DNA from: Acidobacteria bacterium RIFCSPLOWO2_12_FULL_65_11
Lineage (GTDB): Bacteria > Acidobacteriota > Vicinamibacteria > Vicinamibacterales > CAVVIG01
Reading direction: 5' to 3'
Length of the DNA: 36,842 nt
Assembly (NCBI GenBank): GCA_001767495.1
Contig: MELA01000067.1
Coordinates: 40,420 to 77,261, forward strand
Below, in pieces: positions 6,868 to 24,655 of the stretch; position 1 is the first letter of the stretch; each line of letters opens with the position of its first letter. The translations under genes were made by a program, and so were the position numbers. The notes under the pieces are model-generated. The model searched no databases and had not been told where the DNA came from. It was given only the letters and a program-made list of their open reading frames with translations.

Positions 6868-8049
<1,182 letters not shown>

Positions 8050-8081
8050 TTACAATCTGAGTCGGGTGCTGATTCAACACG

Positions 8082-8152
8082 AAGGACACTAAGGACACCA
8101 AGGCTGGTTCTTGGCTCCGTTAGATCGATCCTTTGCATCCTTAGTGTCCTTG
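8082..8152. repeat. Long-loop inverted repeat in the tgt/ddl divergent spacer
   Basis: AAGGACACTAAGGA at 8082-8095 is the exact reverse complement of 8139-8152, a 14-bp stem with a 43-base loop. Both arms are built from the smaller unit AAGGACAC(T/C)AAGG, which is tandemly repeated in each arm. It fills most of the region that must hold the promoters of both tgt and ddl. Confidence 0.75.
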
Positions 8153-8165
8153 GTGTCAAACGTTC

Positions 8166-9305
8166 TTGTCCAAGAAGCTACGCGTCGGCATCATCTACGG
8201 CGGCCGGTCGGGCGAGCACGACGTGTCGCTCGCCTCGGGTGCAGCCGTCTTCAAGAATCTCGATCCCGAGCGTTACGACGCGGTCCCAATCCGCATCGAG
8301 CGTGACGGCCGCTGGTCGTTGCCGGACCACCCGCCGACGCTCGTCTCGGCGGCAGCGGTGATCGAGGCCGCTCGCCCCGATCGCGCCGAGGTCGCGCGCG
8401 AGGCCCACCTGGTCGCCCACCCTGACGGCGACGCCCTCATGACGATCGACCGACGGGGACCGAGCGCCTCGCCGACCATTTCCGCCGTCGGACTTGATGT
8501 CATCTTTCCGGTCCTGCACGGCCCGTACGGCGAAGACGGCACCGTTCAGGGGCTGCTCGAGCTCGCCGGCGTGCCGTACGTGGGCGCTGGGGTGCTCGCG
8601 TCGGCGATCGGGATGGACAAGGCGGCGATGAAGCTGGCGTTTGCCGCCAGGGGGCTGCCCATCTGCGATTACGAGGTGGTACTCAAGCGCGATTGGCGGC
8701 GAGACGAGCGGGGCGTCATGAGCGCGGTGGTCAACCGCCTCGGGTTGCCGGTCTTCATCAAGCCGGCCAACCTCGGGTCGAGCGTCGGCATCTCGAAGGT
8801 CAAGCACGCGGTCGAGTTCGTGGCGGCGATGAATCTGGCCGCCCAGTTCGACCGCAAGATCGTCATCGAGGCCGCGGTTCCCCACGCGCGCGAGATCGAG
8901 TGTTCTGTGCTCGGCAACGACGAGCCCGAGGCCTCGATCCCGGGCGAGGTCGTCCCGTCGCGTGAGTTCTACGATTTCGAGGCCAAGTACATCGACGAGG
9001 GATCGAGGCTCCTGATTCCGGCACCGTTGACCGACGCGCAGGCGGCCGAGGTACGAACGCTGGCCCTCGCCGCGTTTAAAGCCATCGACGGCGCGGGCAT
9101 GGCGCGCGTCGATTTTCTCCTCGCCGGCGACAGCGGCATCCTGTATCTCAATGAGGTCAACACGATTCCTGGTTTCACCACGATTGGCATGTACGCAAAG
9201 CTGTGGGAGGCGAGTGGGTTGTCCTTTCCGGCTCTGCTCGATCGCCTGATCGCGCTCGCCCTCGAGCGACATGCCGAGAAGCAGCAGTTAAGGACGAGCC
9301 GGTGA
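8166..9305 (+). CDS. ddl: D-alanine--D-alanine ligase
   Basis: Ddl is an ATP-grasp enzyme that makes the D-Ala-D-Ala end of the peptidoglycan stem peptide. The 379-residue protein has the N-terminal GRSGEHDVSL motif with the catalytic Glu, GPYGEDGTVQG and GVPYVGAGVLAS, the ATP-grasp lysines, IECSVLG, and the metal- and product-binding LNEVNTIPGFT near the C-terminus. The start is uncertain: the TTG at 8166 gives the best family alignment, and an in-frame GTG at 8154 is possible. No Shine-Dalgarno precedes either. Its stop overlaps the next gene as GTGA. Confidence 0.95.
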   Translation: MSKKLRVGIIYGGRSGEHDVSLASGAAVFKNLDPERYDAVPIRIERDGRWSLPDHPPTLVSAAAVIEAARPDRAEVAREAHLVAHPDGDALMTIDRRGPSASPTISAVGLDVIFPVLHGPYGEDGTVQGLLELAGVPYVGAGVLASAIGMDKAAMKLAFAARGLPICDYEVVLKRDWRRDERGVMSAVVNRLGLPVFIKPANLGSSVGISKVKHAVEFVAAMNLAAQFDRKIVIEAAVPHAREIECSVLGNDEPEASIPGEVVPSREFYDFEAKYIDEGSRLLIPAPLTDAQAAEVRTLALAAFKAIDGAGMARVDFLLAGDSGILYLNEVNTIPGFTTIGMYAKLWEASGLSFPALLDRLIALALERHAEKQQLRTSR

Positions 9306-10363
9306 ATCTTGGTGGCTGGCGGCTGGTGACTGGAACAACGCGACTGAAGTCCGCCGTCTTCTCTCTGTTGGTTGCAATGGCTGCGGCGCCAGCCGAGGCT
9401 GCACTCACCGAAGGGCCGCGACTCGCCGCCGTCTACGACGCCATCCTTGATGCGCGATTCGATCGCGTGGACGCGCTGCTCAAGCAGGCGTGCCCTCCGG
9501 CGCCGTCTGAGGCCTGTCAGGCGTTCGCCGTCGAATCGCTCTGGTGGCAGATCCTCATCAACCCGGAGAGCCGAGCGCTTGACGATCGATTCGCCGCGCT
9601 GGCGGCCCGGGCGATTGCCGCGAGCGAGGCCTGGACGCGCCGCGAACCTCGGCGTGGCGAAGCCTGGTTCTACCTGGCTGGCGCGTACGGGCCGCTCGTA
9701 CAGTGGCGGGTCCTGAGGGGCCACCATTTCGCCGCCGCACGTGAGGGCAAGAGAATCAAGGTCGCGCTCGAGCGCTCCCTCGAGCTCGACCCGACGCTCG
9801 ACGACGCGTATTTTGGGATTGGCCTCTACCACTACTATGCCAACGTCGCTCCGGCCGCCCTGAAGATGCTGCGCTGGCTGCTATTGCTTCCGGGAGGCGA
9901 TCGGGTGGCGGGCCTGCAGGAAATGCTGCAGGGACGCGAGCGCGGCCAGTTGCTCAAGGGCGAAGCTGACTACCAGCTTCACTTCATCTACCTCTGGTAC
10001 GAGCGCCGGCCCGATCAGGCGCTGGCGCTGCTTGGACGGCTGGACGCCCGCTACCCTGGCAATCCCCTGTTCCTCCGGCGCATCGCCGAAATCCGCCAGA
10101 CTCTCCGCGATCATAGCGACGGTGCCGCCGCGTGGCAGCTGCTGCTCGACCGCGCGCGTGCGGGGAGCGTCTACGCCGCTCGCGCCACCGAAGTGCGCGC
10201 GCGGCTGGGCCTCGCGTCCACACTCACCTCGATGAATCAGATCGATGCGGCCGTCGAACACCTGAAGATGGTGATCGACATGCGTCCGATCGATCCGAAC
10301 GGCGCGCTGGCCCTTGCCGAGCAGCAGCTGCGCGCGACGCGCGCGCGAGTGAGGACGCGCTGA
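9302..10363 (+). CDS. Secreted TPR-like protein coupled to ddl
   Basis: I do not recognise a named family. The GTG at 9302 overlaps the ddl stop (GTGA), and this start gives a clean signal peptide ending APAEA near residue 34, so the 353-residue protein should be exported. The mature part is helical with TPR-like character, for example RSLELDPTLDDAYFGIGLYH, LGRLDARYPGNPLFLRRIAE and a final helix pair around AAVEHLKMVIDMRP. The frame stays open upstream inside ddl, but that part is a shadow. Coupling to ddl suggests an envelope task, perhaps a protein-interaction scaffold; this is inference. Confidence 0.8.
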   Translation: MNLGGWRLVTGTTRLKSAVFSLLVAMAAAPAEAALTEGPRLAAVYDAILDARFDRVDALLKQACPPAPSEACQAFAVESLWWQILINPESRALDDRFAALAARAIAASEAWTRREPRRGEAWFYLAGAYGPLVQWRVLRGHHFAAAREGKRIKVALERSLELDPTLDDAYFGIGLYHYYANVAPAALKMLRWLLLLPGGDRVAGLQEMLQGRERGQLLKGEADYQLHFIYLWYERRPDQALALLGRLDARYPGNPLFLRRIAEIRQTLRDHSDGAAAWQLLLDRARAGSVYAARATEVRARLGLASTLTSMNQIDAAVEHLKMVIDMRPIDPNGALALAEQQLRATRARVRTR

Positions 10364-10399
10364 CCGAAAAGATTTTTGACTTTCCCCGCACGTTTGTGC

Positions 10400-10427
10400 T
10401 TGACACTCGCCCGATCTCGTCCATAAT
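10400..10427 (+). promoter_or_regulatory. Near-consensus sigma-70 promoter for the 16-residue peptide unit
   Basis: TTGACA (10400-10405) and CATAAT (10422-10427) are separated by 16 bases, the best promoter match in the window. The predicted transcript starts near 10434 and has a leader of about 94 bases. A nine-codon frame (10439-10468, MSTANSGYS) opens almost at the 5' end and could be a leader peptide. Confidence 0.75.
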
Positions 10428-10527
10428 CTACATCTGGTATGAGTACGGCGAACTCAGGCTATTCCTAGTGAGGTCGCTGGCGAGGTTGGAGTCATCGTAA
10501 CCCACTTGAAGGGGGGGACAGAAGACA

Positions 10528-10578
10528 ATGGCGAAGAAAGCCAAGGGCGGGAAGAAGAAGGCCGGCAAGAAACGCTAG
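10528..10578 (+). CDS. 16-residue lysine-rich peptide
   Basis: The ATG at 10528 opens a 16-codon frame, MAKKAKGGKKKAGKKR, ended by TAG at 10576. Nine of 16 residues are Lys or Arg, and the rest are only Ala, Gly and Met. A purine-rich AAGGGGGGGA lies nine bases upstream as a strong Shine-Dalgarno. It sits alone between a near-consensus promoter and a perfect terminator, so it is a plausible monocistronic gene rather than chance. The composition recalls the tails of histone H1-like and other nucleic-acid-binding bacterial proteins. Function is unknown. The alternative is that the RNA itself is the product. Confidence 0.6.
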   Translation: MAKKAKGGKKKAGKKR

Positions 10579-10597
10579 TTGCCTCGCCCGTCACGAT

Positions 10598-10624
10598 AAA
10601 GGGGGCGCCGCGGCGCCCCCTTTT
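10598..10624. terminator. Bidirectional Rho-independent terminator
   Basis: GGGGGCGCCGCGGCGCCCCC (10601-10620) is a perfect palindrome flanked by AAA on the left and TTTT on the right. The hairpin has an 8-bp GC stem with a CGCG loop and serves both the peptide unit (plus) and the convergent HEAT/cyclophilin gene (minus). Confidence 0.88.
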
Positions 10625-10635
10625 CCCTGTACGAC

Positions 10636-10653
10636 GCCCGGCTGAAGCCGGAC
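10636..10653. repeat. GTCCGGCT/AGCCGGAC stem-loop, copy 2 (one mismatch)
   Basis: GCCCGGCT-GA-AGCCGGAC is an imperfect copy of the stem found at 2347, 26045 and 26522. It lies just beyond the 3' end of the HEAT/cyclophilin gene. Confidence 0.6.
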
Positions 10654-10660
10654 AAACTGC

Positions 10661-12835
10661 TCAGCGCGCGCGCGCAGCCGCCTCAGGCGGCACCGACCCG
10701 TCCCATACACGGACGCGTCGAATGAGATCTCCCTGTTCAATCCGATCGACGATCTCCATGCCAGACACCACGCGTCCGAACAGCGTGTACTTCGCATCGA
10801 GGTGCGGCTGCGGCGAGTGCACGACAAAGAACTGGCTGCCGCCCGTGTCGGGCCACGGATCGAGTGCCATGCCCACCGCACCACGCAGATAGAGGCGCTC
10901 GTTCATTTCGTCGCGAATCGTGTAGCCGGGGCCACCCTCGCCGTCTCCTCGCGGGTCGCCTGATTGAATCACAAAGTCCGGCACGACACGATGGAACGTA
11001 CGGCCGTTGAAAAACCCGCTCCGCGCCAGCGTCACGAAGTTCTCGACGGTGAGCGGGGCCTCGATCATCGCCAGCTCGATCTGAATCGTTCCCCGATCCG
11101 TATCGATGTAGGCCTGGGTGGAGTACGGCGGGCTCACGAGGCGGGTCAGCTGATAGCCGTCCGCCGGGCGCATGGTCGGCGCGGGCCGGATCTGGCGTTC
11201 GACGTCAGAGGCCGACGCCGGGTCGAGCTGCTTGAGGAGCAGGGCGGCGCGCACGCGGACCGCCCAGTCCTTGTCGGCCAGCGCCGTTCTGAGGACCGGT
11301 ACTGCCGCTGGCACCCCATACTTCGTCAACGCCGCAAGCGCGGCGGCGCGGGCGGCGTAGGACGAATCGCGCAACCCGGATCGGTAGGCGTCGGCAAGCG
11401 CCTGTTCGCCGCCGGGCGGCCTGAGCTCGCCCAGGCTGGACGCCGCGGCCGTTCGCACGATGGCATCATCGGCCTTGAGGTGCCGCAGGAGCACATCGAC
11501 AACGTTCCCCGCCCCGAGCTTCACCAGCGACTCGAGAACCGCGGGAATGACCCGCACGTCCGGGTCGTCGAGCATCAACGTCAGACGCGGCACGGCGACC
11601 TCTGGCGCGAGCGTGCCGAGCGAGGTCGCCAGCGCCGCGCGCACGCGCCACTCGGGATCGGGATCGAGGCCCGACAGCACGACGACGAACTGTCGCGGAT
11701 CCAGCGCGGCGATCGATCGGATTGCCGCAGCGCGAATGGCCGCACTCGGGGCCGACAGCCAATCGAGCAGCTGCTCGGCCACCTCAGGCGCCGGCACCGT
11801 GGCCAGAGCCGAGATCGCCTCGAGCCGGATCTGGGCATCGGTGCCCGGGGTCTGAACGAGCCTCAGAAGCGCCGGGACGGCCGCCGGATCGCCGATCCGA
11901 CCGAGTGCGCGCACGCTTTCGATGACGATTGCGCGCTCGGGGCTGGCAAGAAGGGGCAGGAGCACCGACATCACGGTGCGGTCCTTGAGCGCGCCGAGAC
12001 CTTTGACCGCGAAGGCGCGGGTGTAGGGGTGTGCGTCCTTCGTGAGAGCGACGAGCGCGGTCGTGGCTCGCTTGTCGTCGATCCGCTGCAGCGCGTACGC
12101 GACCGGCCACCACCGGACGCGCGGCAGTCCCGACCCGTCAAGAACCGCCGACGCGAGCTGGTCGTACGCCTTCAGGCGGACCAGCGCATAGACGGCAAGC
12201 CGGAACGCGGCCGCCGGCGTGTCCCGCCGCGCGTCGGTTTCGTCGCCAGGCGGCTCGGTCAGCGCGCCGGAGTCGACGATGCCGACAGCCAGCCGGCTGA
12301 GCGCGTCGGCGGCGCCGGAGTCGCCGATGAGACCCAGCGCCTCCGCGGCGCTTCCTTGCACGAGCGGCGAACTGTCTCCGAGCGCGGCGATGAGCGGATC
12401 GCGAGCGCTCGCGTCCCCCAACAGGCCCAAGGCGAAGGCTGCGATCTGCCGCAGCTCGATATCCGGATCGCCTAAGAGGCCGACGAGCGGCTGAACGCCG
12501 GCGCGCAGCCCGACGCGTCCGACCGCCAAAGCCGCACGCCGCCTCACGCGTGGGTCCGGATCCTGGATCAGCCGCAACAGATCCGGTGCGGGCGGCTGGA
12601 GGACCACCGGCACCGCCTCGCTACGCCGCAGAATTGACGGCGTGGGTGAAACCGGCGGCGCGGGGTCGCGGAGCACGCGTTGGTCTTCCAGCCGGAGGAT
12701 CCACGCCAGCTTCTGCTCGAAGCCGAGAGCCTCAGGCGCCGCCGGGATCGCGAGTGTCGCGGGTACGGTCGGCACCGTCGCGCATGCAGCGCCACCGAGG
12801 GCCAGCGCGAGCACCAAGCCAGTTGTCGAACGCAT
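10661..12835 (-). CDS. HEAT-repeat lipoprotein with C-terminal cyclophilin domain
   Basis: This is a 724-residue two-part protein. Residues 1-20 form a lipoprotein-like signal ending in LGGAAC. About 500 residues of HEAT repeats follow, with recurring AVLESLVKLG, AVPALLRLV and RAAALAALTKYG units. The last 165 residues are a cyclophilin-type peptidyl-prolyl isomerase: GTIQIELAMIEAPLTVENFV, NGRTFHRVVPDFVIQSGDP with the catalytic Arg, GGSQFFVVHSPQPHLD and YTLFGRVVSGMEIVD. It probably folds or scaffolds envelope proteins from a lipid anchor. The ATG at 12835 gives the lipoprotein signal. The frame continues upstream to 12862 and beyond, but that crosses the palindromic promoter region and then runs antisense to the kinase gene. 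Confidence 0.9.
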   Translation of the reverse strand: MRSTTGLVLALALGGAACATVPTVPATLAIPAAPEALGFEQKLAWILRLEDQRVLRDPAPPVSPTPSILRRSEAVPVVLQPPAPDLLRLIQDPDPRVRRRAALAVGRVGLRAGVQPLVGLLGDPDIELRQIAAFALGLLGDASARDPLIAALGDSSPLVQGSAAEALGLIGDSGAADALSRLAVGIVDSGALTEPPGDETDARRDTPAAAFRLAVYALVRLKAYDQLASAVLDGSGLPRVRWWPVAYALQRIDDKRATTALVALTKDAHPYTRAFAVKGLGALKDRTVMSVLLPLLASPERAIVIESVRALGRIGDPAAVPALLRLVQTPGTDAQIRLEAISALATVPAPEVAEQLLDWLSAPSAAIRAAAIRSIAALDPRQFVVVLSGLDPDPEWRVRAALATSLGTLAPEVAVPRLTLMLDDPDVRVIPAVLESLVKLGAGNVVDVLLRHLKADDAIVRTAAASSLGELRPPGGEQALADAYRSGLRDSSYAARAAALAALTKYGVPAAVPVLRTALADKDWAVRVRAALLLKQLDPASASDVERQIRPAPTMRPADGYQLTRLVSPPYSTQAYIDTDRGTIQIELAMIEAPLTVENFVTLARSGFFNGRTFHRVVPDFVIQSGDPRGDGEGGPGYTIRDEMNERLYLRGAVGMALDPWPDTGGSQFFVVHSPQPHLDAKYTLFGRVVSGMEIVDRIEQGDLIRRVRVWDGSVPPEAAARAR

Positions 12836-12850
12836 CGGCACAGCCGTCGG

Positions 12851-12864
12851 CGATGATATCATCG
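12851..12864. promoter_or_regulatory. Perfect 14-bp palindrome between divergent genes
   Basis: CGATGATATCATCG sits in the 36-bp gap between the lipoprotein start (12835, minus) and the kinase start (12872, plus). Each strand carries a TATCAT that could serve as a -10 element, so it may be a symmetric divergent promoter or an operator. The plus-strand TATCAT (12857-12862) ends nine bases before the TTG start, leaving no room for a Shine-Dalgarno. Confidence 0.5.
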
Positions 12865-12871
12865 TGCCGCC

Positions 12872-13513
12872 TTGCCCTTCCGCCACATCGCGATTGAAGG
12901 TCCGATCGGCGCAGGCAAAACCGTTCTCGCCGAGCGGCTCGGCACGCGCCTCGACGCCACGGTGGTGCTGGAAGAAACCGAGAATCCGTTCCTCGCCGAC
13001 TTCTATGCCGACCGTCCCGGTGCGGCGCTCCAGGCGCAGCTTTTTTATCTGCTCAACCGCCACCGGCAGCAGACCGCGCTCAGGCAGACCGACCTCTTCA
13101 ATCAGATCACGATCGCCGATTACCTCTTCGACAAGGACAAGATCTTCGCGTACCTCAACCTCGATGATAATGAGTTGTTCATCTATCAGCGGCTCTACGA
13201 TCTGTTGGCTCGCGACGTACCCTCTCCGGATCTCGTCGTCTATCTCCAGACACCAACCGATGTCCTGCGGCGGCGCCTCCACAGCCGCCGCCGCGATCCC
13301 GATGCGGTGGCGCTCGAGCCCGACGATACGTACCTCCGCGAGCTGAACGAGGCGTACCATCACTTTTTTTTCCACTACACGACGACGCCTCTGCTCGTCG
13401 TCGAAACGTCGCAGTTTGACGCTGACAGCAGCAACGAAGCGCTCGACGACCTGGTCAGGCAAGTTCAGGGAATGGGCCCCGGCACCCGGTACTACGTGCC
13501 GCGCACGCGTTAG
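12872..13513 (+). CDS. Deoxynucleoside kinase family protein
   Basis: The 213-residue protein belongs to the dNK/dCK/dGK P-loop family that phosphorylates deoxynucleosides for salvage. It has the P-loop GPIGAGKT (residues 10-17), an EETENPF segment carrying the catalytic acid, ADYLFDKDKIFA, the long helix with LYDLLA, and the lid-region arginines in VLRRRLHSRRR. Substrate preference cannot be read from the sequence. The TTG at 12872 is the first possible start, since an in-frame TGA lies at 12854. It leads a plus-strand run with accD 29 bp downstream. Confidence 0.88.
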   Translation: MPFRHIAIEGPIGAGKTVLAERLGTRLDATVVLEETENPFLADFYADRPGAALQAQLFYLLNRHRQQTALRQTDLFNQITIADYLFDKDKIFAYLNLDDNELFIYQRLYDLLARDVPSPDLVVYLQTPTDVLRRRLHSRRRDPDAVALEPDDTYLRELNEAYHHFFFHYTTTPLLVVETSQFDADSSNEALDDLVRQVQGMGPGTRYYVPRTR

Positions 13514-13542
13514 TCCCCGGACTTTTGGTAAGCTGACACTTC

Positions 13543-14499
<957 letters not shown>

Positions 14500-22933: not shown

Positions 22934-24632
<1,699 letters not shown>

Positions 24633-24655
24633 TACGAACGCGAATATATCATGTC

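Follow-up and report, generated by a model that had tools for sequence, protein, structure and literature searches.

The Hc2 protein varies in length through lysine-rich repeats and binds both DNA and RNA (PMC2848022). Short KPAA peptides bind DNA, and the tail of AlgP positions and organises polyphosphate granules (PMC9239181). The actinobacterial protein bL37 is only 24 aa long and is confined to one bacterial branch (PMC5876184). We compared these systems with a mini-gene found in a window of 36,842 nucleotides (the whole stretch analysed) from Acidobacteria bacterium RIFCSPLOWO2_12_FULL_65_11, contig MELA01000067.1. Judged by the genomes compared here, the unit is present throughout a single order of Acidobacteriota, the Vicinamibacterales (the order name was taken from record titles), and we read it, with moderate confidence, as a stand-alone gene encoding an ultra-small polycation that coats DNA or RNA.

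The encoded peptides are like Hc2 (HctB) and the H1-like proteins (PF07382; Bordetella BpH1) in their lysine/alanine repeats with T, V and P and in their in-frame length variation, and by analogy DNA or RNA binding would be expected (PMC2848022). Unlike Hc2, which has 165-237 aa, they span 14-65 aa, have their own dedicated promoter and leader, and occur in tandem copies. Since the 16-mer of the window is too short for an HMM scan, the HC2 scores come from long relatives: the longest copies reached at best 25.9 and 19.1 bits against HC2 PF07382 (cut-off 40) and 19.4 bits against the Hc2-like NCBIfam model NF038052 (cut-off 135), all below threshold. The family was therefore not filed as an HC2 member, although it is likened to the H1-like tail. 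The C-terminal tails of AlgP and PhaF share the KPAA-type disordered basic repeats, and those tails are DNA-binding and occur in association with polyphosphate or PHA granules (PMC9239181). AlgP and PhaF combine a folded N-terminal domain with the tail, whereas the mini-ORF is wholly tail, with no folded domain. The likeness to bL37 (~24 aa) lies in the ultra-small size, the limitation to one lineage and the fact of being overlooked by annotation (PMC5876184). In contrast to bL37, which is docked in an rRNA pocket as an ordered helix, the mini-gene family has neither a fixed core nor a fixed length.

Table 1. Features of the mini-gene unit, in positions of the window
Feature	Position	Strand	Details and evidence
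Conserved flank upstream of the -35 box, TTTGTGC abutting TTGACA	10380..10399	+	GTGC abutting TTGACA in 75/89 distinct units; T-rich TTTTTGACTTTT stretch farther upstream in relatives
Sigma-70-type promoter TTGACA-N16-CATAAT	10400..10427	+	Read directly: -35 at 10400-10405, -10 at 10422-10427; conserved order-wide, spacer 16 in 84/89 units
Conserved 5' leader (CTACATCTGGTATGAG...CTCAGG...TAGTGAGG)	10428..10475	+	Sequence conserved; includes a nine-codon frame (ATG..TAG, 10439-10468, MSTANSGYS) that is not kept
G-run ribosome-binding site GGGGGGG	10511..10517	+	Ten bases 5' of the mini-ORF ATG; invariant core across an alignment of 25 leaders
Mini-ORF MAKKAKGGKKKAGKKR, 16 aa (8 K + 1 R)	10528..10578	+	16-mer unchanged across 23 distinct sequences of the family; homologues throughout the order, 14-65 aa long
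Intrinsic terminator between convergent genes	10598..10624	.	AAA, inverted repeat GGGGGCGC-CGCG-GCGCCCCC (10601-10620), TTTT (10621-10624); sequence and predicted fold; equivalent hairpins in relatives

The preliminary description of this DNA had noted a near-consensus promoter, a strong Shine-Dalgarno, a 16-codon frame with nine basic residues and a perfect GC-rich terminator. The promoter was found as described, with 11 of 12 consensus matches, and is the top-scoring site in 8000-14000, where four promoter-like sites were counted against a shuffle mean of 0.7. The frame was likewise confirmed. A ribosome site is present, but it is a G-run rather than AGGAGG, which stands there in relatives with the first ORF. 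The inverted repeat of the terminator also held, but the T-tail has only four T, and a terminator scan requiring at least five T did not list the hairpin. As the next gene is convergent, the terminator can act in both directions. A second -35/-10 consensus pattern was absent elsewhere in the source genome, the -10 being sought as TANAAT, stricter than that of the unit itself. On its 5' side the unit follows a TPR-repeat gene, itself located after a D-Ala-D-Ala ligase gene (8166-9305); on its 3' side lies a convergent HEAT/cyclophilin gene (10661-13462, minus strand), with no same-strand gene in between. The window also contains an ordinary TPP riboswitch (24522-24636, minus strand); the gene downstream of it (22934-24532, likewise on the minus strand) looks like thiC.

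A nucleotide search of 60 relatives matched both the promoter and the ORF parts in same-family genomes, and in most of these matches the distance between the two was greater than in the window. The promoter pattern retrieved 73 loci from named genomes, nearly all titled Acidobacteria, Vicinamibacterales or Luteitalea, and in a phylum-wide draw it occurred in 20 of 396 genomes, all Vicinamibacterales. The MAKK...KKR pattern, to which longer copies are invisible, matched 81 of 149 Vicinamibacterales genomes, and 53 genomes each had a single occurrence of the leader pattern. Five MAG records titled Bifidobacterium breve, Cyanobacteria, Acidimicrobiia or Sulfopaludibacter (L070, L047, L062, L086, L113) contain a Vicinamibacterales-type locus; these titles are probably wrong. 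The mini-ORF with its ribosome site was not found in about 310 Acidobacteriota genomes outside the order, a weak negative because the search pattern also missed most order members. The genomic place is nearly constant: the convergent cyclophilin gene lies beside the unit in 77/89 and ddl upstream in 54/89, and where a neighbour went undetected, the flanking DNA was mostly too short or the match scored under the search threshold.

The comparison set comprised 89 distinct promoter units, 86 of them with one or more lysine-rich mini-ORFs. Two mini-ORFs were present in 47, only the second type in 25, only the first type in 14 (a few of these truncated by contig ends) and none in three. The second-type ORF is preceded by a G-run and the first-type ORF by an AGGAG-type ribosome site. 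Most families retain both, the family of the window retains mainly the second, and another family retains the first only. In two-ORF units a crude test placed a terminator-like hairpin after ORF1 in 38 of 47, with another after ORF2. One unit (L123, G053:C358) has three tandem lysine-rich mini-ORFs. The three ORF-less units are copies of the promoter and leader directly before ftsZ in one genus, which still has an ordinary mini-gene unit at the usual place (L134); such ftsZ-associated copies were seen at L125 (1471-1600), L044 (5270-5400), L109 and L112. To judge from these copies, the promoter and leader can move as a module. Because ORF1 alone or ORF2 alone is retained in whole groups, the two peptides appear interchangeable.

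The exact 16-residue peptide was read at the locus in almost all same-family genomes, identical across about 20 of them, and every nucleotide change was silent. Among 23 distinct same-family sequences, 6 of 51 columns vary, all at third codon positions with the stop included, which by our own arithmetic has a probability of about 7e-4 if the changes were randomly placed. Other families have variants such as MAKKTAKGGKKKGGKKR, usually in two tandem mini-ORFs, with length differing by whole codons; across families the codons vary freely and the frame is kept. The 133 mini-ORFs collected encode 62 distinct peptides of 14-54 aa, and a further copy, at L118, reaches 65 residues. The N-terminal MAKK is present in 132 of 133 (one MAKR) and the C-terminal KKR in 119 of 133, with a composition of 50% K, 28% A and 8% G, followed by arginine, threonine and valine. 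The longest copies at the same locus consist of KKAA/KKVA/KKPA repeats. This pattern of substitution shows that the encoded peptide is under selection. Alignment across related genomes, the check proposed in the preliminary description, found the peptide and the promoter conserved and the leader conserved as sequence only; the absence of a conserved frame or promoter, named there as grounds for rejection, was not observed. The silent changes within the family and the frame-preserving length changes outside it support the earlier view of the mini-gene as a real stand-alone gene with a conserved peptide.

Selection also acts on the nucleotides. In 22 same-family genomes, pairwise fourfold identity was 0.84 in the mini-ORF vs 0.55 in the neighbouring cyclophilin gene, and 3 of 7 fourfold sites were invariant in the mini-ORF vs 0 of 33 amino-acid-conserved sites in the cyclophilin gene. 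Seven of the eight lysine codons of the mini-ORF never vary, one of them being AAA despite the GC-rich genome. Since the silent sites are far more conserved than those of the neighbouring gene, the nucleotide sequence is also constrained, and the peptide alone, as compared here, does not explain this conservation. Possible causes are the codon preferences of a very highly expressed gene, constraints on the start region or an RNA function. The leader is strongly conserved (TACATCTKGTATGAGGG..GCTCAG.CCACC), but the nine-codon peptide proposed to start almost at the 5' end of the transcript was rejected: relatives have early stops (M*, MRE*, MRA*, MRMVT*) or shifts, and the stretch is conserved as DNA or RNA sequence. 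The motif GACCTCGCCC is found in the leader and again just past the stop codon in many same-family genomes (alignment A1 columns 41-83; L002-L023). Both copies could pair with the leader GAGGT, and ACCTC mimics the 16S anti-Shine-Dalgarno, so a switch is possible.

These silent sites and the conserved leader are what favour an RNA that is itself the product or co-functional, in the form of a structured or regulatory transcript whose lysine codons serve to control translation, for instance with ORF1 as a lysine-sensing leader for ORF2. The same reading is favoured by the hairpin after ORF1 in most two-ORF units and by the element GTGCCAGGCGGCAGCCAC between leader and ORF2 in nearly all compared same-family genomes. 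However, the copy in the window has lost GTGCCAGGCGGCAGCCAC (the GTGCCAGGCGGCAGC element) and most of the sequence around it (10476-10510; A1 columns 46-243) and still encodes the peptide, so the element is not essential to the gene. RNAalifold on the leader alignment gave a covariation of -0.09, almost no support; other settings gave a larger covariation term, which we did not rely on. A leader hairpin GGRUGG/CCAYCC with a possible pseudoknot was considered, and several groups break its pairing. Rfam 15 gave no match at the locus with gathering or relaxed thresholds, only weak sub-threshold hits, and the free change of codons across families while the frame persists also speaks against an RNA role. 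Lysine attenuation by a leader gene is disfavoured because whole groups have kept just one of the two ORFs, in some ORF1 and in others ORF2, and in the window no same-strand gene follows before the convergent one. Taken together, we consider an RNA product or co-product rather unlikely.

The foremost alternative at the level of the protein, a lineage-specific ribosomal protein docking on rRNA like the basic, 24-residue bL37 of actinobacteria, is doubtful to a similar degree. The size, the MAK start, the high charge, the strong stand-alone promoter and the lineage restriction would all fit, as would the identity of the peptide throughout one family. Across the order, though, the peptides range over 14-65 aa with only the ends conserved and no conserved non-basic core, the length being fixed within the family of the window only, and 47 of 89 units carry a tandem pair whose members often differ. 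Free length variation and the missing core argue against a docked ribosomal protein, which would be expected to keep a fixed core.

Far less probable is a membrane-active, antibacterial or toxic cationic peptide, or a toxin with a regulatory RNA. The peptide is indeed short and very basic, and a long relative matched the spider peptide cupiennin at E 0.076, a chance-level similarity only. But the composition (K, A, G, R, T and little V) offers almost no bulky hydrophobic residues from which to build an amphipathic helix, neither an antitoxin RNA nor a gene for immunity or export was seen beside the locus, and the locus is single and vertically inherited rather than patchy. A chance promoter-like site next to a functionless open frame, conceivable in that DNA commonly contains short frames, is ruled out, since promoter, frame, place and terminator are all conserved across the order.

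The reading that we prefer, a polycation coating nucleic acid, starts from the unit itself, which has a single promoter and a terminator, one or two tandem mini-ORFs (three in one case), each served by a ribosome-binding site, and a near-constant place. Judging by the promoter, the transcript would be plentiful and its translation efficient. The lysine-rich peptide, presumably disordered, would bind polyanions (DNA, RNA or polyphosphate) without sequence specificity, and could thereby help to pack or buffer nucleic acid, like the lysine-rich tails of Hc1, Hc2, AlgP and histone H1. The coat is supported because 14-65 residues are tolerated as long as about half are lysine and MAKK...KKR is kept, and because either tandem copy can be lost. 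Relatives of up to 65 residues resemble the histone H1 tail, so the lysine-packed peptide is probably a miniature DNA- or RNA-coating protein, undescribed so far; peptide strings and small RNAs of Vicinamibacterales were not found in the literature searched. Of the two roles suggested in the preliminary description, nucleic-acid binding thus appears the likeliest from composition and the longer H1-like relatives, and ribosome binding less likely. Two points weigh against a coat. So short a peptide would bind only weakly unless present in very large amounts, and the exact conservation in the family of the window, including several silent sites, seems to exceed the needs of a role based on composition only. 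To our knowledge, no H1-like protein studied comes close to a length as small as 16 residues. A bolder version, which we put forward tentatively, is that this could be the smallest known protein dedicated to condensing chromatin or RNA, a gene-encoded 'protamine' of 14-20 residues with a dual-purpose transcript whose nucleotides are selected and a redeployable promoter and leader.

In summary, an entire order of abundant, mostly uncultured soil and marine Acidobacteriota keeps a gene whose protein is so short that ordinary annotation and standard gene finders skip it. Should the protein coat nucleic acid, it would set a lower size limit for such proteins, and the gradation in length at one locus, between 14 and 65 residues, would be a natural experiment on how long a basic tail has to be. 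Should it belong to the ribosome instead, it would add a lineage-specific ribosomal protein to those known.
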